64,000 nt of DNA from Pseudooceanicola atlanticus (GTDB lineage: Bacteria; Pseudomonadota; Alphaproteobacteria; Rhodobacterales; Rhodobacteraceae): assembly GCF_000768315.1 (NCBI RefSeq), contig NZ_AQQX01000013.1, forward strand, positions 1-64,000. The letters are read 5' to 3'. The position numbers and the translations under genes were made by a program. The notes beneath the pieces are model-generated. The model made no database searches. It saw nothing but the letters and a program-made list of their open reading frames with translations, and was not told the origin of the DNA. This document shows positions 13,062 through 34,421 of this stretch, in pieces; position 1 is the first letter of the stretch; each line of letters starts with the position of its first letter.

Positions 13062-13203
13062 AGTCCGGCGGGCGTTCGCGCCGGACTGTCTTGGGGGCGA
13101 CACCAACCAGCCTGCAGGCCCGGCGCTGCGGGATGTCATGATCCCGGAGCGCCGCTTCTCGCCGCTTGGTTCGCCAGTGGGCTCGAACCAGTGGCGCCTT
13201 CAT
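13062..13203 (-). pseudogene. IS3-family transposase OrfB, 5' fragment
   Basis: Begins MKAPLVRAHWRTKRREAAL 12 bases after the orfA stop and contains RRACRLVGVAPKTVRRERPPD, the usual N-terminal region of OrfB in this group. The catalytic DDE integrase core is absent because the reading frame leaves IS sequence at about 13062. Confidence 0.8.
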
Positions 13204-13215
13204 GGCTCACTGTCG

Positions 13216-13479
13216 TCAGTTCTTTCCCAGCAGGTCTTTCAGCACCACGTTGTACAGCATCGTGCCTGCCAGCGGCCGTTTGAGCTTGGCATTCTCATCC
13301 TCAGGCGCCTTCAGCCTGGACCCCTCGGACACTTCAATACCTCCATACTTGGCCCTCAATTTGTAGAACGTGGCGGTGCTCAGCCCGCGCCTGCGGTACA
13401 CCTCAGCCGTCGGAAGCCCGGCCTCCTGTTCCTTGATCATCCTGATTATCTGCGCCTCGGTGAAACGGCTCTTTCGCAT
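13216..13479 (-). CDS. IS3-family transposase OrfA
   Basis: 87 residues with the OrfA helix-turn-helix (MRKSRFTEAQIIRMIKEQEA, then TAEVYRRRGLSTATFYKLRAKYGG) and the downstream leucine-zipper-like stretch (EDENAKLKR). This is the DNA-binding half of an IS3-type transposase. Full length for the family, but the element is non-functional because orfB is truncated. Confidence 0.88.
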   Translation of the reverse strand: MRKSRFTEAQIIRMIKEQEAGLPTAEVYRRRGLSTATFYKLRAKYGGIEVSEGSRLKAPEDENAKLKRPLAGTMLYNVVLKDLLGKN

Positions 13480-13546
13480 GTGTCTGCTCCTTCAGAGTTG
13501 GCGCAAACTCAACATCACGGTGACGGATTTCGCGGGGGGAAGGTCA

Positions 13547-13799
13547 ACAGGTCCGTACTGGCAAGTTGGCGGCCAAAGCGGAGGCCGCGCATTGCGGTAT
13601 GGTGTTACTGTCCATCGGAGAGGTTACACCCATTCAATGTTGTCACTTCAACCTTCTGAAGGTGGTGGCGAAGGAGCCGGGTTTACCTGCGCATTATCAA
13701 TTCTTTAAGGCGCAAATCTTTGGAAACTTGTGCAGATTGAGGCCTTCGAGCGAAGAGTGCGAGAATTGGGCTCAACGCTCTCGACATAACCCGGGCATT
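13547..13799. other. Intergenic stretch beyond the IS end
   Basis: No recognisable gene or repeat. It does not continue the VCBS-protein reading frame that is cut at 13061, so the IS insertion was accompanied by loss or rearrangement of flanking DNA. Confidence 0.45.
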
Positions 13800-15560: not shown

Positions 15561-16450
15561 TTCACCAATGCGAAGAAATCTTCGTCCTGCATACCTGCAT
15601 TCGATGCGCTTCTGTAGAGTTCGAGAATCAGCCCCGTGGTCATCAACGGCACATTGTTGCGCCTGGCCGCCTCACTGATCAGGGTGAAATCCTTGATCAT
15701 CTGCGACACCGTGAAGGCCGGCGTGTAGTCGCCGGATACCACAGTGTCCTGCTTGTACTTCAATAGCGGCGATGCGACGGCGCTTTCGCAGATCACCTCC
15801 ATCATGTCGGACCGGCTCAGACCGCCGCTCGCGCCGATCGACAGGGCTTCGGACAGGATTGCCGAGGAGGCGCCGACCAGTGTGTTGAGCACGAGCTTCA
15901 TGTAGCGCGCTTCCTCACCTTCGCCCAGGTAAAACTGGCGCGCGGAAAGCTTCTCGATGTAGGGCAGGGCTTCGTCCCAACCGGAGCGGTCACCCGAGGC
16001 CAGAACCGTCAGCGCGGCTTTCTCTGCAAGGTCCGTACTGCCCGACAAGGGCGCACGCACATACCGGATGCCGGCCCGGTTCAGCCTTTGCGCGACCAGT
16101 TCGGAGCATTCCGGTGAAACGGTGCTCATTTCGACAAGAACGGATCCGGTGGGCATCGTGTCAGCCAGGCCGGGCGCCTGCGGGTCGGATTGCCTGAGGA
16201 CGACGTCGACCAGTGCCTGGTCGTTCGGCAGTGTCGCAAAGACAACCGATGCCGCGGAAAAATCGAAAAGAGAGTCGGCGGCCTGCGCGCCGAGCGAGGT
16301 CAACCTGTCCCGGCTGGCGGAATCGGGCTCTGAAATCATGACGGGAATATCGGCCTGCAAAAGGTTCCGGGCCATCGGCCCCCCCATTTTTCCAGTGCCG
16401 ATCCAGCCGACATTGGGCTCTTCGGGCGATACTTTGTGTGTCTGGCTCAT
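15533..16450 (-). CDS. 3-hydroxyisobutyrate dehydrogenase-family NAD(P)-dependent oxidoreductase
   Basis: 305 residues. The Rossmann motif GWIGTGKMGGPMARNL lies at 15-30; the substrate motif reads RAPLSGST (usually DAPVSGG) and the catalytic lysine is K185 in MKLVLNTL, with N189 nearby. Family members oxidise beta-hydroxyacids or reduce the semialdehydes (HIBADH, tartronate semialdehyde reductase, GLYR). First gene of a minus-strand pair whose second gene is the winged-helix/binding-protein fusion. A role in hydroxyacid processing for the adjacent catabolic operon is inference. Confidence 0.85.
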   Translation of the reverse strand: MSQTHKVSPEEPNVGWIGTGKMGGPMARNLLQADIPVMISEPDSASRDRLTSLGAQAADSLFDFSAASVVFATLPNDQALVDVVLRQSDPQAPGLADTMPTGSVLVEMSTVSPECSELVAQRLNRAGIRYVRAPLSGSTDLAEKAALTVLASGDRSGWDEALPYIEKLSARQFYLGEGEEARYMKLVLNTLVGASSAILSEALSIGASGGLSRSDMMEVICESAVASPLLKYKQDTVVSGDYTPAFTVSQMIKDFTLISEAARRNNVPLMTTGLILELYRSASNAGMQDEDFFALVKWQEKLSTR

Positions 16451-16653
16451 CCGAGAAATCTCCGCCTGCGTTTAAAGGACAGCTTAGGGTGCCGATCTGG
16501 AGGAAGCTGGGCGAATTTTTCCGAAGTGGAGATTTTTGATCTGCGGCATCCGGATCGGTTTGTTACGAATCGTCCCAACCAGAGTGGTGATCCCGGGGCC
16601 GTGCCAAGGCCCGCCTGTCGAAGATCACCTGTTTTGGAAGGGAGGATATTGTT

Positions 16654-17721
16654 TTGAAAGCTGTTCGTTTTCACGGGGCCAAGGACATTCGCGTCGAGCA
16701 GGTCGAGGAGCCGTCGGACACCCTGGCGCCCGACGATGTGTTGATCGAGCCGATCATCACGGGGATATGCGGCACTGACCTGCACGAGTATATCGCTGGT
16801 CCGATCGTCACGCCCGCCGAGCCGCATGTCTATACCGGGGCGACCAACCCGCAGATCCTGGGCCACGAGTTTTCCGCGAAGGTGCTGAAGGTCGGCGATG
16901 CGGTATCGGATGTGGCGGCGGGCGATCGCATCTCGGTCCAGCCGCTGGTTGCGCCGCGCAACGACTATTACGGCAAGCGGGGCCTTTATCATCTGTCGCC
17001 GCAATTGGGCTGCATCGGGCTCAGCTGGGCCTGGGGCGGCATGGGCGAGAAGGCAGTCGTCAAGGACTACAATGCCCAGCCCGTGCCGGACGGGATCACG
17101 GATGAACAGGCCGCGATGATCGAGCCGGCCGCGGTGGCGCTTTATGGCGTGGATCGCGGTGGTGTCGAGGCCGGATCGACCGTACTGGTCTCCGGCGCAG
17201 GACCGATCGGAGCGCTGACGGTTCTATCGGCGCATGCCGCGGGGGCCAGCACCGTGATCGTGTCAGAGCCCAATCCGAACCGTCGTCGCATCATTCAGGA
17301 CATTGAGCCCTATGCCACGGTGGTCGATCCCAAAGCCGACGACCTGGCGCAGGTGATCGGCGATCTGACGGAAGAGGGCGTCGGCGTCGACGTCGCGCTG
17401 GAATGCGTCGGGCTGGAGGCGTCCTTGAATGCCTGCGCCGAAGCCGTGCGCCGTCAAGGCAAGGTGGTACAGGTCGGCCTGCACATGAAGCCCGCCGCGA
17501 TCGACGCAATGCTGTGGGCGCTCAAGGACATTACCGTCGAAGCGACCTGGTGCTACCCGACCCAGATCTGGCCGCGCATCGCCCGCATGGTCGCCGCCGG
17601 GAACTTCCCGATCGAAAAGGTTATCACCGCCCGCATCGCGGCCGAAGACGTCGTCGACAAGGGGTTCGAGGCGCTTCTCGACCCGGCCGGCGAGCATCTG
17701 AAAATCATGGTCACCACCTGA
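16654..17721 (+). CDS. Zinc-type medium-chain dehydrogenase, butanediol/sorbitol dehydrogenase-like
   Basis: 355 residues. Catalytic-zinc ligands C39 (GICGTDLHEY) and H71/E72 (GHEFS) and the nucleotide motif SGAGPIG are present. The closest recognisable group is 2,3-butanediol/polyol dehydrogenases (ICGTDLHEYIAGP, KRGLY, GCIGLSW). The structural-zinc cysteines normally found before KRGLY are missing (APRNDYYGKRGLY). TTG start at 16654 after GGAAGGGAGG. First gene of the long plus-strand operon to 28902. Likely oxidises a secondary alcohol of a polyol or cyclitol; substrate unknown. Confidence 0.82.
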   Translation: MKAVRFHGAKDIRVEQVEEPSDTLAPDDVLIEPIITGICGTDLHEYIAGPIVTPAEPHVYTGATNPQILGHEFSAKVLKVGDAVSDVAAGDRISVQPLVAPRNDYYGKRGLYHLSPQLGCIGLSWAWGGMGEKAVVKDYNAQPVPDGITDEQAAMIEPAAVALYGVDRGGVEAGSTVLVSGAGPIGALTVLSAHAAGASTVIVSEPNPNRRRIIQDIEPYATVVDPKADDLAQVIGDLTEEGVGVDVALECVGLEASLNACAEAVRRQGKVVQVGLHMKPAAIDAMLWALKDITVEATWCYPTQIWPRIARMVAAGNFPIEKVITARIAAEDVVDKGFEALLDPAGEHLKIMVTT

Positions 17722-17749
17722 CCGAACCAAGATACGAAAGCGAAAGCTT

Positions 17750-18820
17750 ATGGCTGAAAAGAATATTGCGCTGATCGTCGGGGCCACGGGCCTGTCTGGC
17801 AGCTACACGGCGCGGGAACTCAAGTCGCATGGATGGACGGTGGTGACCGTCTCGCGGTCCGACGTGGACCTGGAATGGTCCGATCGTCACATCGCGGCCG
17901 ACCTGACCGACGCGGAATCGAGCGCGGAGGCGCTGAAGGCCGCGCAGGATGTCACCCACGTCTTCTACTGCACCTGGTCCCGCCAGGCGAACGAGGAAGA
18001 GAACGTCCGGGTGAACGGCCTGATGGCCCGCAACCTGTTCGAGGGCATCGCAGGCGCGCCTGTCAAACATGCCGCGTTGGTGACGGGGCTGAAGCATTAC
18101 CTCGGGTCCTTCGACGATTATGCAAAGGTCACGCCCTACACGCCCTTCCTTGAAAGCAGCCCGCGCCTGCCGGGGCCGAATTTCTACTACGCGCAGGAAG
18201 ACGTCCTGTTCGAGATGGCCGAGAAATACGGGTTCAACTGGTCGGTGCACCGCCCGCACACGATGATCGGCTTCACTGTCGGCAATTACATGAACATGGC
18301 GGTGACGCTGGCCGTCTATGCCTCGATCTGCAAGCATACCGGGCAGAAGTTCCTCTACCCCGGCTCGCCCGAGCAGTACAACGCCGTCACTGACGTGACC
18401 GACGCACGGCTGCTGGCCAAGCAGTTCCACTGGGCCGCGACCACGCCCGAAGCCGCCAACATGCCGTTCAACACGGCAAACGGCGATGTCTTCCGCTGGA
18501 CCTGGCTGTGGCAGCAGATCGCGGATTATTTCGGCGTCGAGGTCGCGGAGTATCCCGGCCACCCAACCCCGCTCGAAGAGCAGATGAAGGATGCCGATGG
18601 CGTCTGGAAGGAAATCGTCGTCCAGCACGGGTTGCAGGACATCCCGGTGACCAAGCTGGCGTCGTGGTGGCACAGCGACGCCGATCTGGGGCGCGAACTG
18701 GAATGCTTCACCGACATGACGAACAGCCGGAAGCTGGGCTTCACGGCCTACCAGTCGACTCGCGACAGCTTCACCGACGTGTTCGACGAATTGCGCGCAC
18801 GCAAGATCATTCCGGCCTGA
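17750..18820 (+). CDS. PRISE-type SDR reductase (progesterone 5-beta-reductase/iridoid synthase-like)
   Basis: 356 residues. Extended SDR fold with a VGATGLSGSY nucleotide motif at 10-19, and the PRISE hallmarks LVTGLKHYLGSF (catalytic Lys) and NFYYAQED (catalytic Tyr). Known members reduce activated C=C bonds of enones with NADPH; bacterial members are poorly characterised. It lies in the operon between a polyol-type dehydrogenase and a YciI protein. Enone reduction or a related dehydrogenation on a cyclic ketone would fit the context. Confidence 0.8.
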   Translation: MAEKNIALIVGATGLSGSYTARELKSHGWTVVTVSRSDVDLEWSDRHIAADLTDAESSAEALKAAQDVTHVFYCTWSRQANEEENVRVNGLMARNLFEGIAGAPVKHAALVTGLKHYLGSFDDYAKVTPYTPFLESSPRLPGPNFYYAQEDVLFEMAEKYGFNWSVHRPHTMIGFTVGNYMNMAVTLAVYASICKHTGQKFLYPGSPEQYNAVTDVTDARLLAKQFHWAATTPEAANMPFNTANGDVFRWTWLWQQIADYFGVEVAEYPGHPTPLEEQMKDADGVWKEIVVQHGLQDIPVTKLASWWHSDADLGRELECFTDMTNSRKLGFTAYQSTRDSFTDVFDELRARKIIPA

Positions 18821-18830
18821 GGAGGACCAG

Positions 18831-19115
18831 ATGCATTACGTGATCCATTGCCTCGACCACGACGGCGCCGTCGACAAGCGACTGGCGAATTACGACGACC
18901 ACAAGGCGTACCTGGCGTCGGCCCCGGTCAAGACCGTCATTTCGGGCCCGCTTCTGGCGGATGACGAGGAAACGATGATCGGCAGCTGTTTCGTGCTGGA
19001 AGCCGATAGCATGGCCGAGGTCGAGGACTTCAACCGCAACGATCCCTTTGCCAAGGTCGGGCTGTGGAAGACCGTTTCGATCCGGCCGTTCTCCAAGCGC
19101 GTGGACAACCGCTGA
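18831..19115 (+). CDS. YciI-like protein
   Basis: 94 residues of the YCII/muconolactone-isomerase-like ferredoxin fold: an early HCLDHDG with conserved His, a central SGPLLADD and a DPFAKVGLW segment near the C-terminus. YciI-like domains act in some dechlorination and lactone pathways, but most members have no known function. Its stop shares one base with the start of the next gene (TGATG), so the two are tightly coupled. A second YciI protein occurs at 61680. Confidence 0.8.
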   Translation: MHYVIHCLDHDGAVDKRLANYDDHKAYLASAPVKTVISGPLLADDEETMIGSCFVLEADSMAEVEDFNRNDPFAKVGLWKTVSIRPFSKRVDNR

Positions 19116-20149
19116 TGTCGGGGCCGGTCAAAATCGCCCTCGTGGGGCTGGGCTGGTGGGGGCAGAAGATGCTCTCTGTCCTGGAGGCGGCACCGGAGGA
19201 CATCAAGGTTGTCCGCGCGGTGGAACCGAACGCGGATGGCGTGCGCGACCTGTGCGACGCCAAGGGGGTCACCCTGTCGACGGAGTATGCCGACGCGCTG
19301 AAGGATCCGGAGGTCGAGGCGGTCGTGCTGGCGACGCCGCATTCGATGCACACCGCCCAGATCGCCGCGGCGGTGAAAGCGGGAAAGCATATCTTCTGCG
19401 AAAAGCCGCTGGCGCTGACCGCCGAGGAGGCCGCACGTTCCGTCGCACTCTGCGCTGATGCCGGGCTGGTGCTGGGCATGGGTCATGAACGCCGGTTCGA
19501 ACCGCCGGTCGCGGACATGCTGGCCAAGGCCGACAGCGGCGCACTGGGCCGCATCCACCAGATTGAGGCCAACTTCAGCCATGACAAGTTCGTCACCATC
19601 GACCGCGACAACTGGCGCGTGAAGGCGACGGAGGCCCCGGCTGGCGGCATGACCGCGACCGGCATTCACCTTCTCGACCTGTCGGTCCGTCTGCTGGGGC
19701 GCGCGGAAAGCGTGCTCTGCATCTGTGAACAATTGTCGTCCGACCTCCCGCAGGGCGACACGGTCGCTGCCTACGTGAAATTCGCGGGCGGCGGCACGTC
19801 TTACGTCTCGGCCTCGCTGGCCAACCCGTTCATGTCCCGCTTCACGGTCTACGGATCGAAGGGATGGATCGATATCCGCGACAAGGCGCATGTCGAGGCG
19901 CCGGACGGTTGGGTTGTCACCAGCGCGATGGCCGGCGGCCCGATCGAAACGCTCGAAATCGGCAAGGCCGAGCCGGTCAAGGACAACCTTGTCGCATTTG
20001 CCCGCGCCGTGCGCGGAGCAGAGGCCTATCCGATCACCGGCGATCACCTGGTGAACAATATCGCGCTGCTCGAAGCGGTCTTCAAATCGTCGCGCAGTGG
20101 CCAGATCGAAACGGTGGCCCAGCCCGCCCTGGAAAAAGTGGAAGCCTGA
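19115..20149 (+). CDS. Gfo/Idh/MocA-family NAD(P)-dependent oxidoreductase
   Basis: 344 residues. N-terminal Rossmann motif GLGWWG (11-16) and the family signature EKPLALT with its catalytic lysine, followed by the C-terminal alpha/beta substrate domain. Members oxidise or epimerise sugars and inositols. Presence with a ribose-type ABC importer and two medium-chain dehydrogenases points to sugar, sugar-acid or cyclitol oxidation. The start overlaps the YciI stop; the next gene starts two bases after its own stop. Confidence 0.85.
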   Translation: MSGPVKIALVGLGWWGQKMLSVLEAAPEDIKVVRAVEPNADGVRDLCDAKGVTLSTEYADALKDPEVEAVVLATPHSMHTAQIAAAVKAGKHIFCEKPLALTAEEAARSVALCADAGLVLGMGHERRFEPPVADMLAKADSGALGRIHQIEANFSHDKFVTIDRDNWRVKATEAPAGGMTATGIHLLDLSVRLLGRAESVLCICEQLSSDLPQGDTVAAYVKFAGGGTSYVSASLANPFMSRFTVYGSKGWIDIRDKAHVEAPDGWVVTSAMAGGPIETLEIGKAEPVKDNLVAFARAVRGAEAYPITGDHLVNNIALLEAVFKSSRSGQIETVAQPALEKVEA

Positions 20150-20150
20150 C

Positions 20151-21131
20151 ATGAAAGCCCTGATCTTCGATGAACCGAACAAGCCTGTCGTCACGCAGGT
20201 CCAGACGCCCGGGATCACCGACAACGAAGTCCTGATCCAATCGCGGCGCGTGGGCATCTGCCATTCGGATTACGAGCTGCTGGCGGGCCAGTACATCATA
20301 CCGATCTCCTATCCGGTCACACCGGGCCATGAATGGGTGGGCGAGGTCGTCGAGGTCGGCAAGAACGTCAAGGGCCTCAAACGCGGCGACCGGGTGGTCG
20401 GCGAATGCGTCATCAACACGCCCGAACGGATCCATCACTTCGGGTTTTCGATGGATGGCGCGGATCGCGAGTTTTTTGCCGCCCGGCCTGAATGGCTGCA
20501 CAAGCTGCCCGATGCCGTGGACGACACCAAGGGCGCACTGATCGAACCCTTTACCTGTGGCTATTACGCCGTGCTGCGGAACGGCGGCGTCTGCGCCGCT
20601 GACACGGTCGTCGTGTCAGGTGGCGGGACCATCGGTCTGGTGTCGGCGGCGGCTGCGATCGGCATGGGCGCGCGGGTCATCGTGGTCGATCCGGTGCCGC
20701 TGCGCCGCGATATCGCGATGCAGCTGGGTGCGGATGCGACGGTCGATCCCATGGACGGCGACCCGGTCGAGGCGATCAAGGAAATGACCAAGGGCGGTGC
20801 CGACCTGGTCGTGGAATGCGCGGGGCATGCCTCTTCGCTGGCCAATGTCTTCGAATACGCCCGGGAAGAGGGGGACGTTTCCATGGTCGGCATCAATATC
20901 GGCCAGAAGATAAACGTCGACCTGGGCAAGATCCAGATCAAGAACCTCAACGTGAAGGGCTGTATCGGATCGCCCGGCGTCTGGCCGGCGGCGATCCGGT
21001 TCCTGGAACGCACGGGGCTCGATCTGTCGCCGATCCAGACCCACAGCTACGGCATCGACGAGGCCCTGACCGCGCTCGACCTCGGCAAGTCGCCGGACAA
21101 GGCCGTCAAGGTCACCCTGGAAATCAGCTGA
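20151..21131 (+). CDS. Medium-chain zinc-type alcohol dehydrogenase
   Basis: 326 residues. Catalytic zinc ligands C37 (GICHSDYE) and H60-E61 (PGHEWVGEV); nucleotide motif SGGGTIG. As with the dehydrogenase at 16654, the four-cysteine structural zinc loop is replaced, here by a segment without cysteines (NTPERIHHFGFSMDGADREF). It resembles the galactitol/threonine dehydrogenase side of the family. Part of the long operon; probably oxidises a polyol or cyclitol hydroxyl. Confidence 0.83.
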   Translation: MKALIFDEPNKPVVTQVQTPGITDNEVLIQSRRVGICHSDYELLAGQYIIPISYPVTPGHEWVGEVVEVGKNVKGLKRGDRVVGECVINTPERIHHFGFSMDGADREFFAARPEWLHKLPDAVDDTKGALIEPFTCGYYAVLRNGGVCAADTVVVSGGGTIGLVSAAAAIGMGARVIVVDPVPLRRDIAMQLGADATVDPMDGDPVEAIKEMTKGGADLVVECAGHASSLANVFEYAREEGDVSMVGINIGQKINVDLGKIQIKNLNVKGCIGSPGVWPAAIRFLERTGLDLSPIQTHSYGIDEALTALDLGKSPDKAVKVTLEIS

Positions 21132-21159
21132 GTTCATTGGGCAAGGGGAGGAGACGACG

Positions 21160-22194
21160 ATGGCCGATACAACACCGCAAAGCCTCGGGCGGCCAACTGG
21201 CATCGGCTCGATTCCCCTGGCCAAGGGGTTTGCGACCATCGTCGTTTCGACCCTGGCCCTGATCCTGCTTTGCGCCATCTTCGCGCCTTCCGCGGTCACC
21301 GCCGGGTCGTTGATGGGCAGCCTTCCCTTCGCAGCGGTTCTGGGGATCGTCGGGCTGGGCCAGATGCTGGTCGTTCAGCAGGGCGGCTTCGACCTGTCGG
21401 TGCCGGGTTCGGTGTCGCTGGCAGTCGTCATCGCGACCCACATGCCAAACGGAAACGACGCGATGCTGGTGCAGGCCATCTTGGTCGCGGTCGGCTTTGC
21501 CCTGGCGGCCGGTATCCTGAACGGCATCATGATCGCCTATTTCCGCCTGAACGCGATCGTGGCGACAATTGGCATGAATGCGTTGCTATATTCTGCCGTC
21601 TTCGCCATCTCGGGTGGCGTGCCGCGGATCACGACAAAGCTGCTGGCGTCGATTGCGGGCGGACAGACCATGGGCATTCCGCATTCGGTCTTCATCGCTG
21701 CCGGCATTCTTGCCATCGTATCCTTCGCGCTGAAGAAGACCGTCGCCGGGCGTCGCTTCGAGGCGATCGGCGCCAACCGTGTCGCCGCGCGTGCCGCCGG
21801 ACTTGGCGTCAAGCGCTATCAGGCCATGGCCTACGTCATGGCGCAGCTTCTGTACTGCACCGCGGGGGTGTTGATTGCCGGCATCACGCGCGAGCCGACC
21901 GCATTCCAGGGCAATTCCCTGCTCCTGCCTTCGGTCGCTGTGGTGGTGCTTGCCGGTACGTCCTTGCTGGGAGGACGCGGCTTTCCGATCTCGGTCGTGA
22001 TCGCGGCCTTCTTTCTAAACCAGCTCAGCCAGTTCGCCCTGTCGATCGGCGTGCCGTATTCGGCCCAGACCATCGTGCAGGCGCTCGCGCTCGTCTTCGG
22101 GATCGGGGTCTATTCGATCGACTGGACGAGCCGTTTCACAACCAAGACGAAAAGTCCAAAGGAGGAGGAAACCCATGAGACTTTCGATGCTTAA
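21160..22194 (+). CDS. Ribose/sugar-type ABC transporter permease
   Basis: 344 residues, multi-spanning. The BPD_transp_2 (RbsC-like) family is shown by QQGGFDLSVPG, NGIMIAYFRLNAIVATIGM, the EAIGANRVAARAAGL coupling loop and AGTSLLGGRGFP. Inner-membrane channel half for the importer made with the binding protein at 22175 and the ATPase-permease fusion at 23315. Its end overlaps the binding-protein gene by 20 bases. Confidence 0.9.
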   Translation: MADTTPQSLGRPTGIGSIPLAKGFATIVVSTLALILLCAIFAPSAVTAGSLMGSLPFAAVLGIVGLGQMLVVQQGGFDLSVPGSVSLAVVIATHMPNGNDAMLVQAILVAVGFALAAGILNGIMIAYFRLNAIVATIGMNALLYSAVFAISGGVPRITTKLLASIAGGQTMGIPHSVFIAAGILAIVSFALKKTVAGRRFEAIGANRVAARAAGLGVKRYQAMAYVMAQLLYCTAGVLIAGITREPTAFQGNSLLLPSVAVVVLAGTSLLGGRGFPISVVIAAFFLNQLSQFALSIGVPYSAQTIVQALALVFGIGVYSIDWTSRFTTKTKSPKEEETHETFDA

Positions 22195-23242
22195 AGGGGG
22201 CGGTGCCATCGCGGCGCTTGGCCTGGGGATGGTTCTGTCGGCAGGCGCCGCAACCGCGCAGGACACACCGTCCTGGTGTGGCCCGAACGAAGCGACGCTT
22301 GCGCTGCTCGACGGGTTTGGTGGCAACAGCTGGCGACTTGTGACCACGGCCTCGGGCAAGCAGGAGGCCGAGAAGTGCCCCTCGATCACCGAGTATTTCT
22401 ACGCCGACGGCCAGGGGGATACCCAGAAGGCGATTTCCGACATCAACTCCATGGCCGCGCGCGGCGTGGACGCGATGGTTGTCTTCGGTGACGCCGGCCC
22501 GGCCGTGCTTCCCGCGCTGACCAATGCCTTCCGTTCCGGCGCGGTGGTCGTGCCCTATCGGGTGAACGTCGGTGGGGAGGCAGGCCGGAACTACACCCGC
22601 TTCATCGGTGCGGATTTCGTCTATGATGGCGAAAGCTGGGGCACCTGGATCAAGGAGAACTTCCCCGACGGTGCCAACATCCTGTTCCTGTCCGGCCCTG
22701 CCGGCAACAGCCAGGGCCTGGACGAGCTGAAGGGGATGAAGAACATCCTCGACGACAGCTATACCTTCCTGAACCCCGACCCCTTTGCCGTCACCAACTG
22801 GGACCCGTCCCTGACGCAGCAAGTTCTGTCCGCGGCCATCGCGCAGCATGACGACATCGACGTGATCGTGTCGGACTTCGGTCCGTCCCTCGTGGGGGCC
22901 CTGCCGGTCTTCAAGAACTTCGACCGGTCGATCCCGGCGCTTGCCACTTCTGACGGCAACTCGCTCGGCTGCTTCTGGCACGAGAACCAGGCCGACAACC
23001 CGGACTTCAAGCTGTTCACCGTGGCGACGGGCAATGACAACGTGCGCCTCGCAGTGCAGTGGGCCATCGCCGAGGCGACGGGTGGCACCCCGCCCGAGGC
23101 CGAGATCTTCGAAGCACCGAACTTCGAGGACTCGACGGATGGCGACCCGAGCGAGGTGCAGTGCCGCGATGATCTGCCGGGGGCAATCTACCTGTCCTCG
23201 CAATTGTCCGGTGATGAACAGGCGAAAGCCGTCGGCCAGTAA
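22175..23242 (+). CDS. Ribose-type ABC transporter periplasmic binding protein
   Basis: 355 residues with a signal peptide (about 1-28, ending AATAQD), then a type I periplasmic-binding fold of the RbsB/LacI-like group (GDTQKAISDINSMAARGVDAMVV; VVVPYRVNVGG; FLSGPAGNSQGLDELKG). Three cysteines in the mature part are unusual for the family. It delivers ligand to the permeases at 21160 and 23315. RbsB-like proteins bind sugars, polyols, inositols and autoinducer-2. Followed by a stem-loop at 23254-23274. Confidence 0.88.
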   Translation: MRLSMLKGGGAIAALGLGMVLSAGAATAQDTPSWCGPNEATLALLDGFGGNSWRLVTTASGKQEAEKCPSITEYFYADGQGDTQKAISDINSMAARGVDAMVVFGDAGPAVLPALTNAFRSGAVVVPYRVNVGGEAGRNYTRFIGADFVYDGESWGTWIKENFPDGANILFLSGPAGNSQGLDELKGMKNILDDSYTFLNPDPFAVTNWDPSLTQQVLSAAIAQHDDIDVIVSDFGPSLVGALPVFKNFDRSIPALATSDGNSLGCFWHENQADNPDFKLFTVATGNDNVRLAVQWAIAEATGGTPPEAEIFEAPNFEDSTDGDPSEVQCRDDLPGAIYLSSQLSGDEQAKAVGQ

Positions 23243-23253
23243 TGGCCCTGTCC

Positions 23254-23274
23254 CTGGGCGGATGTGCCGCCCGG
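23254..23274 (+). terminator. Stem-loop after the binding-protein gene (possible attenuator)
   Basis: CTGGGCGG-ATGTG-CCGCCCGG forms an 8-bp stem with one T-G wobble. No T tract follows. Such hairpins after a binding-protein gene usually stabilise the upstream mRNA or reduce transcription into the ATPase gene. Confidence 0.45.
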
Positions 23275-23314
23275 GGTGCCGCACCCGAACCCCTGATCTG
23301 CGGAAAACGAACGG

Positions 23315-25846
23315 ATGATACCTTTGGCTGACATTGTACCCGACCAGACTGCCCGGGATATGCGTGAACCTGACGCCGGGACGCCTTTGGTTCGCTTGTC
23401 CAACGTGTCCAAATCCTTTGGAGCTGTCCGGGCATTGATCGACGTCAGCGTCGACATTCATGCCGGCGAAGTCCACGCGATCCTTGGGGAAAACGGGGCG
23501 GGAAAATCCACCCTGATGAATATCCTGACCGGCGTGCTGCAACCCAGCACCGGCACGATCGAGGTCGGTGAGCGCAACGTCATGCCGCTCACCCCCGAAA
23601 CGTCGTCTGCTCTTGGTATCGCGATATCGTATCAACACCCTGCCATCCTTCCGGACATGTCCGTGCTGGAAAACCTGCAGGTGGCCTTGCCGTCCAGGAT
23701 TTTCGAAGCGGAGCGGGACGATCATGTGGGGCGCCGATTGCTGGATGATGTCGGCCTGCACGTGCCACTGAATGCGCGCGTCGATGCCCTGACCATCGCG
23801 CAGAAGCACCTGTTGGAACTGGCCAAGGCACTTGCGGTGAACCCCAAGGTGCTGATCCTGGATGAGCCGACGGCAGCTCTGGACCAGGACGCGACAGACA
23901 TGCTGTTCGACCGCGTGCGCCAACTGAAGGCTGGAGGCACTGCGGTCATCTACATCACCCATCGTCTCGCCGAACTGCGTCAGATCGCAGATCGCGTTAC
24001 CGTTCTGCGTGACGGTCGCCATCGGGGCAGCGCGCTTGCCAGCGAAATCAGCAACAGCGAGCTTCTCGACCTGATCGTGGGGCGCACGCTGGCATCGGCT
24101 TTTCCGCCGAAATGCCCCCAGAGCGATCCCCAGATAAATTTCGAAGTGCGTGGCCTGAGTGGCCGCAAGTTCACCGACGTGTCATTCAACGTCGGGCGCG
24201 GCCAGATCATCGGCGTCGCCGGGGTTGAAGGGAACGGTCAATCCGACCTGATGCGCGCCCTCGTGGGGCTGCAGAGCTATTCCGGCGACATCAAGCTTGC
24301 CGACCGCACGCTGAAACCGGGAGAGCTCAAGGATATGGCGGCATTCATGCCGTCCGACCGACACGAAGAAGGGCTGGCCGCGGATCTGACCATCCGCGAG
24401 AACGCGACTTTCGCGTCGCTCGACAAATACGCCTCCGGTGGGGTGCTGAGCCGTCGGCGGGAGCATGAAAAGGTGCAGGACGTCTTTTCTTCGCTTGCCG
24501 TGAAGGCGTCCGGGCTGGAGGCCAAGGTGTCGTCGCTTTCGGGCGGCAACCAGCAGAAAATCGTGATGTCGCGGGCGCTGTTGTCCGAACCGGGTTATAT
24601 CATCGCGGACGAACCGACCCAGGGTGTCGATGTGGGCGCGCGTTTCGAAATCTACCGTATCCTGCGCGAGGTTTCGGATGCGGGAACGCCGGTGATCGTC
24701 AATTCCTCGGACGCGGCCGAACTGGAAGGGCTCTGCGATATCGTCATCGTCATGTCGCGGGGGCGCGTGGTCGAAACCCTGCGCGGCGACGAGATCACGG
24801 AGGCGCGTATCGTCGGCGCTGCGGTCGAGGCCGATACCCATGCGCATCACGCAGATGAGGCGCGGCGTTCGGAAGGTGGCTTCGCAGCAAAGTTCCGTCA
24901 TTTCGCCCAGACAGACAATGCCACCATCATTCCGCTCGCCATCGTGGCCGTGGCATTGGCGCTCTTCGTCAGCGGTCAGAATGAAAACTACCTTTCGGCC
25001 TTCAACCTGTCGAACATCCTGATCCTCGCCACGGCGCTCGGTTTCATCGCGCTCGGTCAAACCATCGCGCTCTTGATGGGGGGGATCGACCTGTCCGTCG
25101 GACCACTGGCCGGGTTCTGCGTGGTCATCGGCTCCTTCTTCATCAATGACGGCAACGCGGCGGCGACGATGGGCCTGGGCTTTGCACTGATGTTCGGGGC
25201 TGCGATGGTCGTCGGGCTGATCAACGGGATACTCATACGCTTCGCCAACTTCACCCCGATCGCCGCGACGCTTGCCATGTTCATAGGTCTTCAGGGTATG
25301 AGCTTTGTCCTGCGGGACGGGCCGGGCGGCTATATCTCCTTCGACGTGATCGACACGCTGACCTGGCGCTTCGGCGCGGTCCCGGTCGCCTTCATCGTCA
25401 TGGTGGCGCTGGCCATCGCCATGGAGATCGGCCTGCGCCGCGCGCGCCCTGGCTGGCAGCTGCGCGCCGTCGGATCGAACGAGGAATCCGCGCGTCGGAT
25501 CGGGGTGCGGACGGACCTGACATTCGTACTGGGTTACGTCGGGGTGTCGGTCCTGACCGCCCTGGGGGCGGTCATGCTGATGGCACAGATCGGTGTCGGC
25601 GATCCGGCGCAGGGGGTGAACTACACGCTTGGCAGTATCACCGCGGTCGTACTGGGCGGGACCAGCCTGTTGGGCGGGCGCGGCACCTTCATCGGTTCGG
25701 TTCTGGGGGCAATCCTGCTGACCGAAGTGCTGAACGCGGTGTCGTTCCTGGGCCTGTCGCAAAGCTACCAATATGGGTTTCAGGGCCTGCTGATCCTGGC
25801 GGCCGCGCTCATCTACACCACGGCTCGACGGCGACGCGAAGAATAA
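23315..25846 (+). CDS. Fused ABC transporter: RbsA-type double ATPase plus RbsC-type permease
   Basis: 843 residues. Residues about 25-270 form the first cassette (Walker A GENGAGKST at 58-66, Walker B LILDEPTAAL). About 275-500 form the second (degenerate Walker A GVEGNGQSD, signature LSGGNQQK, Walker B IIADEPTQGVD), as in RbsA/MglA. From about 525 to 843 is a full multi-spanning permease (MGGIDLSVGPLAGF, RRARPGWQLRAVGSNEESAR, GGTSLLGGRGTF). With the separate permease at 21160 the complex would have two different membrane halves. The fusion is in frame without any internal stop. It belongs to the hydroxyquinol operon. Confidence 0.9.
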   Translation: MIPLADIVPDQTARDMREPDAGTPLVRLSNVSKSFGAVRALIDVSVDIHAGEVHAILGENGAGKSTLMNILTGVLQPSTGTIEVGERNVMPLTPETSSALGIAISYQHPAILPDMSVLENLQVALPSRIFEAERDDHVGRRLLDDVGLHVPLNARVDALTIAQKHLLELAKALAVNPKVLILDEPTAALDQDATDMLFDRVRQLKAGGTAVIYITHRLAELRQIADRVTVLRDGRHRGSALASEISNSELLDLIVGRTLASAFPPKCPQSDPQINFEVRGLSGRKFTDVSFNVGRGQIIGVAGVEGNGQSDLMRALVGLQSYSGDIKLADRTLKPGELKDMAAFMPSDRHEEGLAADLTIRENATFASLDKYASGGVLSRRREHEKVQDVFSSLAVKASGLEAKVSSLSGGNQQKIVMSRALLSEPGYIIADEPTQGVDVGARFEIYRILREVSDAGTPVIVNSSDAAELEGLCDIVIVMSRGRVVETLRGDEITEARIVGAAVEADTHAHHADEARRSEGGFAAKFRHFAQTDNATIIPLAIVAVALALFVSGQNENYLSAFNLSNILILATALGFIALGQTIALLMGGIDLSVGPLAGFCVVIGSFFINDGNAAATMGLGFALMFGAAMVVGLINGILIRFANFTPIAATLAMFIGLQGMSFVLRDGPGGYISFDVIDTLTWRFGAVPVAFIVMVALAIAMEIGLRRARPGWQLRAVGSNEESARRIGVRTDLTFVLGYVGVSVLTALGAVMLMAQIGVGDPAQGVNYTLGSITAVVLGGTSLLGGRGTFIGSVLGAILLTEVLNAVSFLGLSQSYQYGFQGLLILAAALIYTTARRRREE

Positions 25847-25907
25847 CGGCGGAGCCACCGACTGCAATGCGACGACCGCCTCCGGAACGGAGGCGCAGGG
25901 AGGGATC

Positions 25908-26972
25908 ATGCCCGCACCATTCATCTACTCCGCCAGCCCGGGCCGCGTCGTGTTCGGCCCCGGAAAACTGGCCAGCGTCGGCACAGAGATCGAAGCGCTC
26001 GGATGCCGCCGGGCCCTGGTTCTGTCGACCGAGTTTCAAAGGCCTGACGCGGACGCGCTCGCGGCGTCACTTGGCGGCATGGCTGCCGGCACCTTCACCG
26101 AGGCGGCGATGCATACGCCGGTCAGCGTGACCGAAAAGGCGATGACGGTCTATAAGGAGAGCGGCGCCGACTGCGTCGTTGCGCTTGGCGGCGGATCCAC
26201 CATCGGGCTGGGTAAGGCCATTTCCTGGCGCAACAATGCGCCCCAGATCGTCGTGGCCACCACCTATGCCGGGTCCGAGGTGACAGATATCCTCGGCCAG
26301 ACGGAAAACGGTCGCAAGACCACGGTGCGGGACCCGAAGATCCGGCCCGAGACCGTGATTTACGATCCCGATCTGACCCTCGGCCTTCCGGTCGCGATGA
26401 GCGTATCGAGCGGGCTCAACGCCATGGCCCATGCCGTCGAGGGGCTCTATGCGCCAGACGCCAACCCGGTTACGTCGCTGATGGCGGTCGAAGGGCTGCG
26501 TGCGCTGAAATCGGCCCTGCCCAGGATCGTCGCCGCGCCGGAAGACCGCGATGCCCGGGCCGAGGCGCTCTATGGTTCCTGGCTCTGCGGTATTGTCCTT
26601 GGGTCGGTTGCCATGTCGCTTCACCACAAGCTTTGCCACACGCTCGGTGGCGGCTTTGACATGCCGCATGCCGAAACCCACGCGATCCTCATTCCGCACA
26701 CGGCCGCCTACAATGCCACCGCTGCCGCGGACCGGCTGTCGCGTGCCGCAGAGCTGTTCGGTGGTGACCTCGGCGGTGGCCTCTGGGACTTCGCCAGTTC
26801 GATCGGTGCGCCTCTGGCGCTCGCCGATCTCGGCCTGAAGGACAGCGATCTCGCCAAGGCCGCCGACATGGCGGTCGAGAACCCGTACCAGAACCCGCGC
26901 GAGGTCACTCGCGACGGCATACTTGACCTGCTGACCCGCGCCCACACCGGGCAGCGGCCTGTGACGAGCTGA
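25908..26972 (+). CDS. Maleylacetate reductase
   Basis: 354 residues of the iron-containing alcohol dehydrogenase superfamily, in the maleylacetate reductase branch. NAD-binding motif GGGSTIGLGKA, TTYAGSEVTD, and metal-region histidines in HHKLCHTLGGGFDMPHAETHA. It reduces maleylacetate to 3-oxoadipate with NAD(P)H. Directly followed by hydroxyquinol 1,2-dioxygenase, which makes maleylacetate, so the assignment is strong. GGGAGGGATC precedes the ATG. Confidence 0.92.
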   Translation: MPAPFIYSASPGRVVFGPGKLASVGTEIEALGCRRALVLSTEFQRPDADALAASLGGMAAGTFTEAAMHTPVSVTEKAMTVYKESGADCVVALGGGSTIGLGKAISWRNNAPQIVVATTYAGSEVTDILGQTENGRKTTVRDPKIRPETVIYDPDLTLGLPVAMSVSSGLNAMAHAVEGLYAPDANPVTSLMAVEGLRALKSALPRIVAAPEDRDARAEALYGSWLCGIVLGSVAMSLHHKLCHTLGGGFDMPHAETHAILIPHTAAYNATAAADRLSRAAELFGGDLGGGLWDFASSIGAPLALADLGLKDSDLAKAADMAVENPYQNPREVTRDGILDLLTRAHTGQRPVTS

Positions 26973-26986
26973 AGGGAAAGGCCGAC

Positions 26987-27859
26987 ATGAACACACATCC
27001 CGAGATCGCTTATTTCACCGAGGATGCCTCGGTCGAAACCGTAAACGCGCGGATTGCCGACAGCGCCGACCCGCGCCTCCGCCAGGTGATGGAAAGCCTG
27101 GTCCGCCATCTGCATGCCTTCGTTAAGGACGTGGAGTTGACCCAGGAGGAATGGGGCGTCGCCATCGATTTCCTGACCCGCACTGGCCAGATCTGCGACG
27201 AGAACCGGCAGGAGTTCATCCTGCTATCCGACGTGCTGGGCGTGTCGATGCTGGTGGACGCGATCAACAATCGCCGCCCCACCGGCGCCACGGAAAACAC
27301 CGTGCTGGGCCCGTTCCACGTCGACGGCGTGCCGGAATACGAGATGGGCGCGAACATCACCAAGCAGGGCGGACGCGAGACCTGCCGCTTCGAGGGCAGG
27401 GTCACCGATCTGGATGGCAACCCGGTCGAGGGTGCCCGCATCGACGTATGGAGCGACAGCGAAGACGGCTATTACGACGTGCAACAGCCGGACATCCAGC
27501 CGCGCCATAACAACCGGGGTGTCTTTACCACCGGACCGGACGGGCGCTACTGGTTCGACGGGATCAAGCCGGTGTCCTACCCGATCCCCGATGACGGGCC
27601 GGTCGGCCAGATGCTGGGGCATCTTGGACGCCACCCCTACCGCCCCGCGCACATGCATTTCATCGTCGGCGCCGAGGGATACGACCCGATCACCACGCAT
27701 ACTTTCGTCGCCGGGGATGACTACCTGACCTCCGACGCGGTCTTCGGTGTGAAAGGATCGCTGATCGCCGAGTTCGAACCTGTCACGGGCGGCGACACCA
27801 AATGGCGGTCACCCTATGATTTCGTTCTCCACAGGGTCGGTCAGGGGCAGGCGCGATGA
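26987..27859 (+). CDS. Hydroxyquinol 1,2-dioxygenase (intradiol)
   Basis: 290 residues. Non-haem Fe(III) ligands of intradiol dioxygenases are visible: Y163 (DGYYDVQ), Y198 (VSYPIP), H222 and H224 (RPAHMHF). The N-terminal helical dimerisation domain covers about 1-105. The length and the YYDVQQPDIQPRHNNRG region match hydroxyquinol rather than catechol dioxygenases. It opens 1,2,4-trihydroxybenzene to maleylacetate in the cytoplasm. Coupled with the maleylacetate reductase upstream; its end overlaps the PanE-like gene by four bases. Confidence 0.92.
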   Translation: MNTHPEIAYFTEDASVETVNARIADSADPRLRQVMESLVRHLHAFVKDVELTQEEWGVAIDFLTRTGQICDENRQEFILLSDVLGVSMLVDAINNRRPTGATENTVLGPFHVDGVPEYEMGANITKQGGRETCRFEGRVTDLDGNPVEGARIDVWSDSEDGYYDVQQPDIQPRHNNRGVFTTGPDGRYWFDGIKPVSYPIPDDGPVGQMLGHLGRHPYRPAHMHFIVGAEGYDPITTHTFVAGDDYLTSDAVFGVKGSLIAEFEPVTGGDTKWRSPYDFVLHRVGQGQAR

Positions 27860-28902
27860 CCAGATCCGACACGTCGCCCCGCATCGCCTTTATCGGGACC
27901 GGAGCGCAGGGCGCCTCCATCGCCGCCGATTTCACCCTCGCCGGCCTCGATGTGACGTTCATTGATCAGTGGCCCGCCCATGTGGACGCGATGCGGGAAC
28001 AGGGCATCACCGTGAACCTGCCCACCCGGCAGCTACATACGCCGGTCAAAGCGCTGCACCTCTGCGAGATCGCCGAGATCAAGGAACCGTTCGACGTCGT
28101 CTTCATGGTCGTCAAAGCCTATGACACGAGGTGGGCCGCCGAGATGATCAAGCCGGTCCTCGCCGAAGACGGCTTTGTCGTCGGCCTTCAGAACGGCATG
28201 ACACATGAAGATATTGCCGACATCGTCGGTCCGCATCGTACCATCGGGGCGGTCATCGAAATCGCCTCGAACATGTGGGAGCCGGGGATCACCACCCGCC
28301 AGAACGACACCGACGAAAGCTGGTTCGCCATGGGCGCGCTGGACCCCGCACAGCAGCCACGGGTGCACGCCGTTGCGGATCTTCTGCGGAACTCGGGTAC
28401 GGTCGAGGTAGTGGATGACATCCGGTCAGCCAAGTGGATGAAGCTTGTCGTCAATGCCGCCGAGCTCATTCCCTCGGCCATCATCGACACGGCCTTGAAC
28501 GACGCCGCCCGGGACCCGCAGTTCCTGGAGGTCATGCGCAAGGCCGGCTACGAGGCGATGGAGGCGGCACTTGCCGATGGCGCCACGATCATGCCGATCA
28601 TCGGGATGCCCCCGGTGATGAGCAACCACCCGGAACGCTACGTGGACCAGATCTTCGACAAGGTCCTGTCCACCTTTTCGCGTGAAGACACGCTCACGAC
28701 ATCTTTGCAGGACTGGCGCAAGGGGCGGCGGGCCGAGATCGACGAGGTCAACGGGCTGGTCGTGGATATTCTGGCCGCGCATGGCAGAGACGCACCCGTG
28801 AACCGGCTGGTCGTCGACATGGCGAAACAGATCGAAAAGGGAACGCGTTCGGCCGCACCCGAAAATGGCGCGGAACTGATTGCATCCTGCCAGGCGCCGT
28901 GA
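27856..28902 (+). CDS. Ketopantoate reductase-family (ApbA/PanE) oxidoreductase
   Basis: 348 residues. N-terminal NADP motif GTGAQG (14-19), a VKAYDTRW segment with the family lysine, GLQNGMTHE, and a C-terminal helical domain with KWMKLVVNAAELIP. Housekeeping panE is unlikely here, as it is the last gene of a catabolic operon and overlaps the dioxygenase start by ATGA. PanE-like enzymes in such settings reduce alpha- or beta-keto acids. Substrate unknown. Confidence 0.83.
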   Translation: MTRSDTSPRIAFIGTGAQGASIAADFTLAGLDVTFIDQWPAHVDAMREQGITVNLPTRQLHTPVKALHLCEIAEIKEPFDVVFMVVKAYDTRWAAEMIKPVLAEDGFVVGLQNGMTHEDIADIVGPHRTIGAVIEIASNMWEPGITTRQNDTDESWFAMGALDPAQQPRVHAVADLLRNSGTVEVVDDIRSAKWMKLVVNAAELIPSAIIDTALNDAARDPQFLEVMRKAGYEAMEAALADGATIMPIIGMPPVMSNHPERYVDQIFDKVLSTFSREDTLTTSLQDWRKGRRAEIDEVNGLVVDILAAHGRDAPVNRLVVDMAKQIEKGTRSAAPENGAELIASCQAP

Positions 28903-29202: not shown

Positions 29203-30279
29203 TCAACCTGTTGCCAGCACGAACACCTGCGCGTAGCCGCTTGCGTCGGATGTGTAGACGACCTGCTTCCCGTCTGGCGAAAAGCGCGGATGGGGATGCG
29301 TATGTTGCGGCGCGTGCACTTTGACCGGCCCGTTATTGTACGGGAAGGGATGCGCCCAATGCGCCCCTTGCGACGTCGCTTTAGGCTCCGTCAGGAAGCG
29401 CGGGGCGTCCGCGCCGGACAGATCCAGCACATGCAGGCCCCGGTCCGGAAAGTTGGTGTCGCAGACCAATTTGCTGCCGGTCGCGTCGGGCGCGCCATGC
29501 CAGACCGGGAAATCGGTGATCGGGGTCACGGCCCCGGTATCGGGGTCGATCTCTCCCATGCCGTTCGGCCAGTCCACGAACAGTACCGTGCGGTGACCGG
29601 GACGCCAGACCTCGTGGGTGATCCACTGCAGGTCGTGCTCCCGCTCGAAGATGCGGCGGTTGTTGCCGGCGCGATCCGTGATCCAGACCCGGTCGGTCAT
29701 CGGTCCGGCATAGAGGATCAGGTCCTCGTCATCTGGGCAGAACTGGGGATGGCCGATTGTCGGGGCCTCCAGGAAGACCTCCGCGCTTTGTGCTTCGGTG
29801 TCGATCATCCAGAACTGGCTGACCTTGCCCGCCTTGACCGGAACGGCCCAGTAGCGGCCACTGGCAGACAGGGCGGTGGTGCCCATGGCGGCCCCGACCA
29901 TGCCGGCCTCGCGCATCTCGGTGCTGTCGAAATGGGCCAGCGTTTCGACCGTGCCATCGCGGGTGGATACGCGTTTGCCTTCCTGTCCGGCCACATAGTA
30001 GATCCAGCGCCCGTCCTTCGAGGGGATCACGGACCATTCGGCCAGCGCCGGTTCCTCGGTCAGCTGGACAAGCTCCGCGCCCGGTTCCCGCTCGACATAG
30101 ATCTGCGGCTTGCCGGTCCGGTGCGAGATCAGCACGAGAAAGGACATCGCCGCATCCCAGGCATCCACGAAGAAGAACGGCTGGTGGTGGATCGACGGAT
30201 GGTCGGTCACCTGCCGGATCTGGACGCCATTGGATTGGTGCACGATGCGGCTCTCGGATTTCAGGGCAAGGTCGGTCAT
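29203..30279 (-). CDS. Oligogalacturonate lyase-like beta-propeller protein
   Basis: 358 residues of WD40/PD40-type blades (SFLVLISHRTGKPQIYVE, RFSPDGKQVVYTSDASGYAQ) and histidines clustered near the C-terminus (HAPQHTHPHPRF) and in ITHEVWRPGHRTVLF. These features resemble cytoplasmic oligogalacturonate lyases, where histidines and a glutamine bind Mn. No signal peptide is seen. Last gene of the minus-strand TAXI-TRAP cassette. Catalysis on an oligouronide is plausible but should be treated as family-level inference. Confidence 0.7.
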   Translation of the reverse strand: MTDLALKSESRIVHQSNGVQIRQVTDHPSIHHQPFFFVDAWDAAMSFLVLISHRTGKPQIYVEREPGAELVQLTEEPALAEWSVIPSKDGRWIYYVAGQEGKRVSTRDGTVETLAHFDSTEMREAGMVGAAMGTTALSASGRYWAVPVKAGKVSQFWMIDTEAQSAEVFLEAPTIGHPQFCPDDEDLILYAGPMTDRVWITDRAGNNRRIFEREHDLQWITHEVWRPGHRTVLFVDWPNGMGEIDPDTGAVTPITDFPVWHGAPDATGSKLVCDTNFPDRGLHVLDLSGADAPRFLTEPKATSQGAHWAHPFPYNNGPVKVHAPQHTHPHPRFSPDGKQVVYTSDASGYAQVFVLATG

Positions 30280-30281
30280 GA

Positions 30282-32177: not shown

Positions 32178-32257
32178 GTTCTCCTCCATTCAGCACATCG
32201 CGTGGATCGGGACTTTCGGGAAAGGCACGGCCGGTCGGCCCGGCCGTGCAGAAGGCC

Positions 32258-33262: not shown

Positions 33263-33322
33263 GGTTTCCTCCCTTGTTGCAGAATGCCCCCGGAACGGGA
33301 CCGGGGGCAAACGGGTCGTGCG

Positions 33323-34264: not shown

Positions 34265-34322
34265 GTCGGAATCTCCTCCAGATGCGGTTTTTGTCCGTTC
34301 GACCCGCCTTGATTACCACGAA

Positions 34323-34348
34323 TGGGAACGTTTGCGGGAACGTTCCCA
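34323..34348. promoter_or_regulatory. LacI-type operator
   Basis: GGGAACGTTCCC (34336-34347) is a perfect 12-bp palindrome centred on CG, the classical LacI/GalR-family form. A direct half repeat, GGGAACGTT, lies just upstream at 34324-34332. It sits between the divergent aldolase (34264) and LacI (34422) genes, so it probably mediates repression of both. Confidence 0.78.
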
Positions 34349-34421
34349 AAAATGCATTGCCAGTGGGAGGTGTCAAGTGGTAGTTTTCGATCAAGCAAGT
34401 GCAGGCACCGGAGCGCGCAAT

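Follow-up and report, generated by a model that had tools for sequence, protein, structure and literature searches.

Three described pathways come closest to the one considered here. In the gamma-resorcylate/resorcinol locus on plasmid pRL12 of Rhizobium johnstonii 3841 (L137), the genes for maleylacetate reductase and hydroxyquinol 1,2-dioxygenase are adjacent, with a YciI-family gene beside them. In quinate and shikimate catabolism an alicyclic polyol is oxidised, dehydrated to an aromatic and ring-cleaved, as is commonly understood of those families. The iol pathway of myo-inositol is related through two dehydrogenases, IolG and IolM. We have analysed a 64,000-nucleotide stretch of Pseudooceanicola atlanticus DNA (contig NZ_AQQX01000013.1, positions 1 to 64,000; here called the window), which belongs to an assembly of 4.94 Mb in 47 contigs. 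An operon at 16654-28902 of the window bears a likeness to each of these systems. We read it as a complete pathway, from uptake to ring cleavage, whose substrate is a small alicyclic polyol and most likely a cyclitol; we put the chances of this at about even. No description of the gene set was found in the titles and opening parts of abstracts listed by searches of the open-licence literature.

The operon and its ring-cleavage genes

The operon is real and lies at these coordinates. It contains eleven genes, all on the + strand, and every gene named in an earlier note on this DNA was located on that strand where the note had placed it. The last gene, for an ApbA/PanE-type reductase, had gone unnamed. 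The unit also reaches beyond 16654, to a divergent gene for a 3-hydroxyisobutyrate-dehydrogenase-like oxidoreductase (HIBDH) and a regulator gene, both previously missed; we assign these two to the unit because they are conserved alongside it. The features are as follows, MDR denoting a medium-chain dehydrogenase.

13800-15560, - strand: regulator, a winged helix (about residues 28-141) with an SBP_bac_1/8 domain (Pfam, AlphaFold, Foldseek)
15533-16450, - strand: HIBDH (NAD_binding_2, NAD_binding_11)
16518-16532, no strand: operator-like 15-bp palindrome TNTCCR-N3-YGGANA in the divergent promoter
16654-17721, + strand: MDR1, zinc-type (ADH_N, ADH_zinc_N)
17750-18820, + strand: PRISE-family enone reductase homologue (PRISE Pfam; 272 bits to the progesterone 5-beta-reductase 5mlm)
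18831-19115, + strand: YciI-family protein (YCII Pfam; 10 orthologues aligned)
19115-20149, + strand: Gfo/Idh/MocA oxidoreductase (domain match; 66-sequence alignment)
about 20151-21131, + strand: MDR2, zinc-type (closest NCBIfam IolM)
21160-22194, + strand: CUT2-type permease (BPD_transp_2)
22175-23242, + strand: RbsB-type periplasmic binding protein (Peripla_BP_4; AlphaFold model)
23315-25846, + strand: CUT2 ATPase with two ABC domains, fused to a permease (ABC_tran twice, BPD_transp_2 at 564-830)
25908-26972, + strand: maleylacetate reductase (450 bits to the maleylacetate reductases 3w5s and 3hl0)
26987-27859, + strand: hydroxyquinol 1,2-dioxygenase (430 bits to the 6-chlorohydroxyquinol 1,2-dioxygenase 8r2x, 267 to the hydroxyquinol 1,2-dioxygenase 1tmx)
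27856-28902, + strand: ApbA/PanE-type reductase (orthologue in 36 of the 62 core loci defined below, truncated copies counted)

The lower pathway is secure at the level of homology, and the strength of the dioxygenase and maleylacetate reductase matches upholds what had been claimed for it. The Tyr/Tyr/His/His iron ligands are retained in the window dioxygenase, and residues Y163, Y198, H222, H224 and R219 are near-invariant (at least 97% of 74 aligned sequences). The dioxygenase would convert 1,2,4-trihydroxybenzene to maleylacetate, which the reductase would take on to 3-oxoadipate. Homologues of the enzymes that could complete the route are encoded on another contig of the same genome, both scoring above cut-off: 3-oxoadipyl-CoA thiolase (pcaF, 640 bits) and 3-oxoadipate:acetyl-CoA transferase (485 bits). 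Among the operon genes there is no resorcinol hydroxylase, flavin hydroxylase or decarboxylase such as would supply hydroxyquinol from resorcinol, gamma-resorcylate or nitrophenol in the conventional way. Close relatives carry a gene for a short-chain dehydrogenase/reductase (SDR) between those for the dioxygenase and the ApbA/PanE-type reductase. This gene is missing in the window, its closest match elsewhere in the genome being at 42%.

Next to the regulator gene lies that of a 516-residue protein with bacterial Ig/cadherin-like repeats (12109-13659). Further upstream, 472-11408 is a probable second aromatic-catabolism cluster, encoding a Rieske-domain protein, a VOC-family protein, a LysR regulator, FAD monooxygenases, an alpha/beta hydrolase, a fumarylacetoacetase-like hydrolase, a cyclase-family protein and a fused TRAP transporter. 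On the other side, 29206-35444 holds genes for an oligogalacturonate-lyase-like beta-propeller protein, an NMT1-like binding protein with a DctM permease, a DHDPS-family enzyme and a LacI regulator.

Recurrence of the module and its variants

Scanning an alignment of the YciI protein across genomes confirmed 177 places, and we retained the 80 best. Ten plasmid loci were retrieved with the binding protein, PRISE or the regulator as query. Nine of them, all with YciI, bring the set to 89 loci (L numbers); the tenth, L048, has the importer type only and was left out. Plasmids were searched by tblastn, and genes within loci were called by a simple codon-usage caller and then clustered. We term a locus core where MDR1 (truncated copies counted), MDR2 and the Gfo/Idh gene are all present. 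This holds for 62 of the 89, which are not independent because some are near-identical or overlapping.

Gene counts in the core loci are lower bounds, because contig ends and the 10-kb limit on flanks truncate the loci. A YciI gene was called in at least 61 of the 62, HIBDH and the regulator were each found in 58 (truncated copies counted), the dioxygenase in 56, PRISE in 55, importer A in 52, maleylacetate reductase in 45, an extra SDR in 31 and importer B in nine. In six core loci the fetched DNA contains no dioxygenase gene that is intact. Five of these (L063, L066, L071, L078 and L082) end at a contig edge or the flank limit, and in L072, from a metagenome-assembled genome (MAG), the gene at 18116-18920 was called in two pieces and is broken or misassembled.

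The module has a patchy distribution over Rhodobacterales, Rhizobiales and Burkholderiales. Most Burkholderiales loci have fewer upper genes, with L099 retaining the full dehydrogenase set and L104 having importer B, MDR1, HIBDH, YciI, dioxygenase, reductase and PRISE. The YciI scan also placed loci in Acidisoma, Paraburkholderia, Caballeronia and others, and tblastn found plasmid copies in Loktanella salsilacus and on Rhizobium/Sinorhizobium plasmids. Among 385 genomes of the class, the binding protein has matches at E <=1e-20 in two, its own and one other at 31% identity. PRISE matches occur in 18 of 100 relatives; of the 15 PRISE loci read, the module is present in those of the P. atlanticus genome and of genomes G006 and G026, and the other 12 are without it. 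The earlier note had proposed a search for the same gene order in other genomes. The gene set does recur across orders, but its order is reshuffled between them, with several importer types swapped around the upper genes. A set conserved through such rearrangement is therefore more than chance.

Other metabolic genes stand near the module. CoA-transferase and/or thiolase genes are found in L055, L064, L084, L085, L117 and L123 (the CoA-transferase confirmed by Pfam in L064, L084 and L085, the remaining names taken from sequence starts), and L128 carries a gene for the acetyl-CoA transferase of 3-oxoadipate. Transketolase-like subunits are encoded at L071 3774-8472 and L083 1-2093, one L083 subunit being confirmed by Pfam and the others named from sequence starts; L071 also encodes a glycerol-kinase-like sugar kinase and a protein with a fucose-isomerase domain.

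For comparison we hand-picked five conventional hydroxyquinol loci (L137-L141) from 45 rows among 407 records. The module dioxygenases do not form a single clade apart from the five conventional enzymes (test p 0.0002), the p values of these clade tests being indicative only because the groups were defined once the first tree was in view. Left out of the tests were three sequences on long branches (L129, L108 and one of the two from L116) and three duplicates (the window copy, L021 and L022). The test of 60 against 16 dioxygenases is inflated, since 11 of the 16 belong to loci in which no more than two of the four upper genes are present. Nineteen rhizobial module dioxygenases group with the R. 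johnstonii 3841 gamma-resorcylate enzyme (support 99/79), and other rhizobial and Burkholderiales module dioxygenases are placed elsewhere in the tree. Thus the dioxygenase lineage changes while the upper genes stay constant. We interpret this as repeated recruitment, an argument for hydroxyquinol being what the upper module produces.

Within the span of the module genes, the 89 loci together contain 119 non-core genes, 44 of them unassigned, of which 43 were scanned. No aromatic hydroxylase or decarboxylase is present in the 25 of 34 Pfam families listed for these, the test extending to such interior genes and including no Pfam search of the flanks or the rest of the genomes. The interior families listed are importers, regulators, SDRs, CoA transferases, CobW, amidohydrolases, an integrase, a TIM barrel, a malonate decarboxylase set (L127) and a split dioxygenase. 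The absence of a resorcinol hydroxylase or decarboxylase, remarked on earlier for the operon, thus extends to these families, unlike in conventional loci. In L137, L138 and L139 a flavin monooxygenase is annotated within the same run of genes, and L140 has an aminomethyltransferase-family gene with folate enzymes. In L141 neither stands beside the dioxygenase, but the edges of the locus carry genes for phenylacetate epoxidase and for a subunit of a ring-hydroxylating oxygenase. Our claim is that there is no oxygenase inside the module, not that there is none in the cell.

Two kinds of variant depart from the common pattern. Seven YciI loci contain a TRZ/ATZ-type amidohydrolase (L087, L090, L108, L113 and L115, in cluster c18; L119 and L129), with a CobW-type protein beside it in L087, L090 and L108 (by Pfam) and L113 (from the sequence start). 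This suggests a related pathway for a nitrogen-bearing substrate. The Shinella sumterensis locus L049 shares regulator, YciI and dioxygenase with the module, and its SDR is 54-61% identical to those of several loci. No orthologue of MDR1, MDR2, Gfo/Idh, PRISE, maleylacetate reductase or HIBDH is present in the part of the locus that was read; some 7 kb off there is a Gfo/Idh gene of another kind. L049 also encodes a TIM barrel whose sole NCBIfam match at 1e-8 is the 3-dehydroshikimate dehydratase QuiC (54 bits, against a cut-off of 1200).

Upper enzymes, importer and regulator

MDR1 is annotated as a 2,3-butanediol dehydrogenase in four relatives, and its nearest NCBIfam family is L-threonine 3-dehydrogenase. 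MDR2 lies nearest to the scyllo-inosose 3-dehydrogenase IolM (169 bits against a cut-off of 450). The Gfo/Idh protein is nearest to the inositol 2-dehydrogenase IolG (115 bits, also below cut-off), with weak matches to levoglucosan and glycoside 3-dehydrogenases; it retains the EKP motif and H185. The extra SDR of many relatives, taken from L075, resembles acetoin reductase (297 bits, with the cut-off at 304). PRISE enzymes act on enones, and in the module protein K115 and Y147 are near-invariant (64 sequences). Their spacing of 32 residues matches the catalytic pair of progesterone 5-beta-reductase, which we take to be K147/Y179.

The importer consists of an RbsB-type binding protein, a BPD_transp_2 permease and a tandem-domain ATPase fused to a second permease. 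Domain content and fold place it in the CUT2/RbsB class, as had been proposed when it was called sugar-type. The AlphaFold model of the binding protein (mean pLDDT 81.4) has ribose-binding proteins as its top fold matches, and the myo-inositol-binding protein of Caulobacter (4irx) comes only at rank 16. The idea of a clear inositol binder is not supported, since the fold ranking does not discriminate. The binding protein of importer B is nearest to fructose-, arabinose/galactofuranose- and ribose-type proteins. Those importers that could be typed across the loci, by Pfam or by similarity to window genes, are of the sugar class; the conventional hydroxyquinol loci compared have branched-chain-type ABC, MFS or tricarboxylate carriers instead. 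The fold matches of the binding proteins support a ligand that is small and hydrophilic.

The AlphaFold model of the regulator (mean pLDDT 76.9) has a helix-turn-helix with a two-strand wing, and Foldseek puts its solute-binding domain nearest to 5iai, 1eu8 and 4rya, sugar-type binding proteins. We take 5iai and 4rya to be bound to ribitol and mannitol respectively. Relatives of the regulator are mostly annotated as extracellular solute-binding protein, and matches at 80% coverage or more occur in 33 of the 550 matching plasmid records. Of the 61 divergent regions, 46 contain the palindrome, where a mononucleotide shuffle predicts 0.06, the motif having been derived from the very regions used for the count; in total it occurs 84 times in 1.88 Mb of locus DNA. 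In rearranged loci it lies upstream of PRISE (L066, L067, L071, L074 and L080) or of the importer (L127). No copy was found in the other 15 divergent regions or in L049, L087, L099, L100, L113, L115 and L117. We infer that the palindrome is the binding site of the divergent regulator, which would probably bind it and, through the sugar-type domain, sense the substrate or an early intermediate.

A cyclitol as the proposed substrate, and the alternatives

A pathway can be proposed in which the CUT2 importer takes up a cyclitol-type polyol, and MDR1, MDR2 and the Gfo/Idh enzyme, in many relatives joined by the SDR, oxidise ring hydroxyls to ketones. Water could then be lost by beta-elimination, for which YciI is the best candidate as acid-base helper. 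PRISE would reduce an enone intermediate if the substrate has one oxygen too many, and the product would be 1,2,4-trihydroxybenzene. The atoms balance without an oxygenase: quercitol less 2H and two water, or inositol less three water, is C6H6O3. Indirect support for a cyclitol-like substrate comes from the vicinal-diol- and inosose-type dehydrogenases (below cut-offs), the QuiC-like barrel in a relative and the sugar-type sensor domain. The reading as a whole is also favoured by the 3-oxoadipate genes of this genome, the CoA-transferase and thiolase genes near other loci and the retained catalytic pair of PRISE. The earlier note had suggested, as one possible reading, that the operon turns a cyclitol into an aromatic, and the lower pathway, the importer class and the gene context favour this; the binding protein, lying nearest to ribose binders, does not.

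A broader proposition is that the module represents an undescribed, oxygenase-free catabolic route from cyclitols to aromatics in Alphaproteobacteria and some Burkholderiales, with YciI as the dehydrating or aromatising enzyme and the amidohydrolase versions serving aminocyclitols or other nitrogen-bearing rings. We offer this tentatively, thinking it rather less probable than its opposite.

A number of observations weigh against the cyclitol reading. Some concern the enzymes. There is no recognisable dehydratase in the window operon, and HIBDH and the ApbA/PanE-type reductase have no obvious step in the scheme. In at least 97% of 66 Gfo/Idh sequences the position four before the active-site His is Ala (Ala181 in the window), not the Asp of the Asp-x3-His arrangement that we take to be the catalytic motif of the family, so that this protein may be no ordinary alcohol dehydrogenase. 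PRISE is missing in seven of the 62 core loci, one of which (L078) is cut at a contig end, and L023-L025 have PRISE relatives, at about 52%, but no module. Others concern the substrate and its control. The binding protein is no closer to the myo-inositol binder than to ribose binders, and in L048, from Mesorhizobium ciceri, an importer of the type, 41% identical, stands among other sugar-acid genes with the module absent. The amidohydrolase in variants means that not every YciI locus handles a plain cyclitol, and the palindrome was not found in the Shinella locus, several Burkholderiales loci and four loci of the amidohydrolase type. Quinate/shikimate catabolic genes adjoin the module in L040 (19498-22274, a Loktanella plasmid) and L106 (3241-5613, a Rhizobium MAG), on opposite sides in the two; this would speak for the reading, but 2 of 89, against about 0.4 expected on a rough estimate, is little above chance. 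The remainder concern oxygenases, the search for which was confined to the module interior. L049 has an alpha/beta hydrolase and a long cytochrome P450 gene beside the regulator (15959-20249), an FMO-like gene lies close to YciI in L087 and is matched in length by a gene of L115, and the window flanks hold FAD monooxygenases and a P450. The L049 P450, the flanking monooxygenases and L048 all fall outside the main module.

The main rival to a cyclitol is an aryl glycoside, or a polyol derivative of an aromatic ring related to hydroxyquinol, resorcinol or hydroquinone. The Gfo/Idh enzyme and the dehydrogenases would free the sugar through 3-keto beta-elimination, leaving the aglycone for the dioxygenase. 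Gfo/Idh enzymes do take part in oxidative deglycosylation, and the weak levoglucosan and glycoside 3-dehydrogenase matches and the sugar-class importer would suit such a substrate. By its Pfam and PDB matches the Shinella barrel could be a 3-keto lyase rather than a dehydratase, although QuiC is its only NCBIfam match at the threshold used. Moreover, no glycosidase is found in the families listed or the recurrent gene clusters, many of these clusters having been typed from exemplars or sequence starts, and two MDRs and an enone reductase look superfluous to deglycosylation. We regard this as a possibility of the second rank, and doubtful.

An unusual aromatic or enone monomer, such as a phenolic side-chain alcohol or ketone or a mycosporine-like cyclohexenone, trimmed to hydroxyquinol by the dehydrogenases and PRISE, seems unlikely. 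It would make use of the enone chemistry of PRISE, the variants with an amidohydrolase suggest that some substrates contain a C-N bond, several hosts are marine and some loci are flanked by oxygenase genes. However, a side chain is normally removed with the help of an oxygenase, a hydrolase or a decarboxylase, none of which recurs inside the main module, and the importer class is unusual for phenolics.

Least probable is that one promoter serves two unrelated functions, sugar or polyol oxidation and a hydroxyquinol-scavenging pair: the dioxygenase and reductase do shift lineage and position relative to the other genes, six core loci are without an intact dioxygenase and the importer type exists without the pair in L048, but the dioxygenase is kept in all the other core loci, the exceptions lie at DNA ends or are split, and its repeated re-recruitment argues that a link to the upper genes is needed.

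If the cyclitol reading is right, cyclitols, which are common in plants and algae, would be degraded by way of prior aromatisation. It would account for a gene cluster found in multiple orders, provide an enzymatic route from polyols to 1,2,4-trihydroxybenzene, and give an assay for bacterial enzymes of the YciI and PRISE families.

Each known system differs from the operon in a particular way. The L137 locus has a decarboxylase, a flavin monooxygenase with its reductase and an MFS carrier, and the operon has none of these; its YciI is 28% identical to that of the module over 79 residues. The regulator resembles SgrR-type regulators in fusing a winged helix to a solute-binding domain, differing in that its domain is the sugar-type SBP_bac_1/8 and that of SgrR SBP_bac_5. 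The iol pathway is understood to open its ring by hydrolysis and never to form an aromatic. Degradation of myo-inositol by iol genes was considered and rejected, the genome having no IolE above cut-off (best 66.5 bits against 290). A quinate-type pathway was likewise rejected as the identity of the operon, the QuiC-like gene of the genome (653 bits) being on a separate contig, C20. To our knowledge the logic of aromatising first and degrading afterwards is otherwise found in quinate and shikimate catabolism. There it ends in protocatechuate by way of QuiC and dehydroquinase, neither of which is among the operon genes, whereas the product put forward here would be 1,2,4-trihydroxybenzene.

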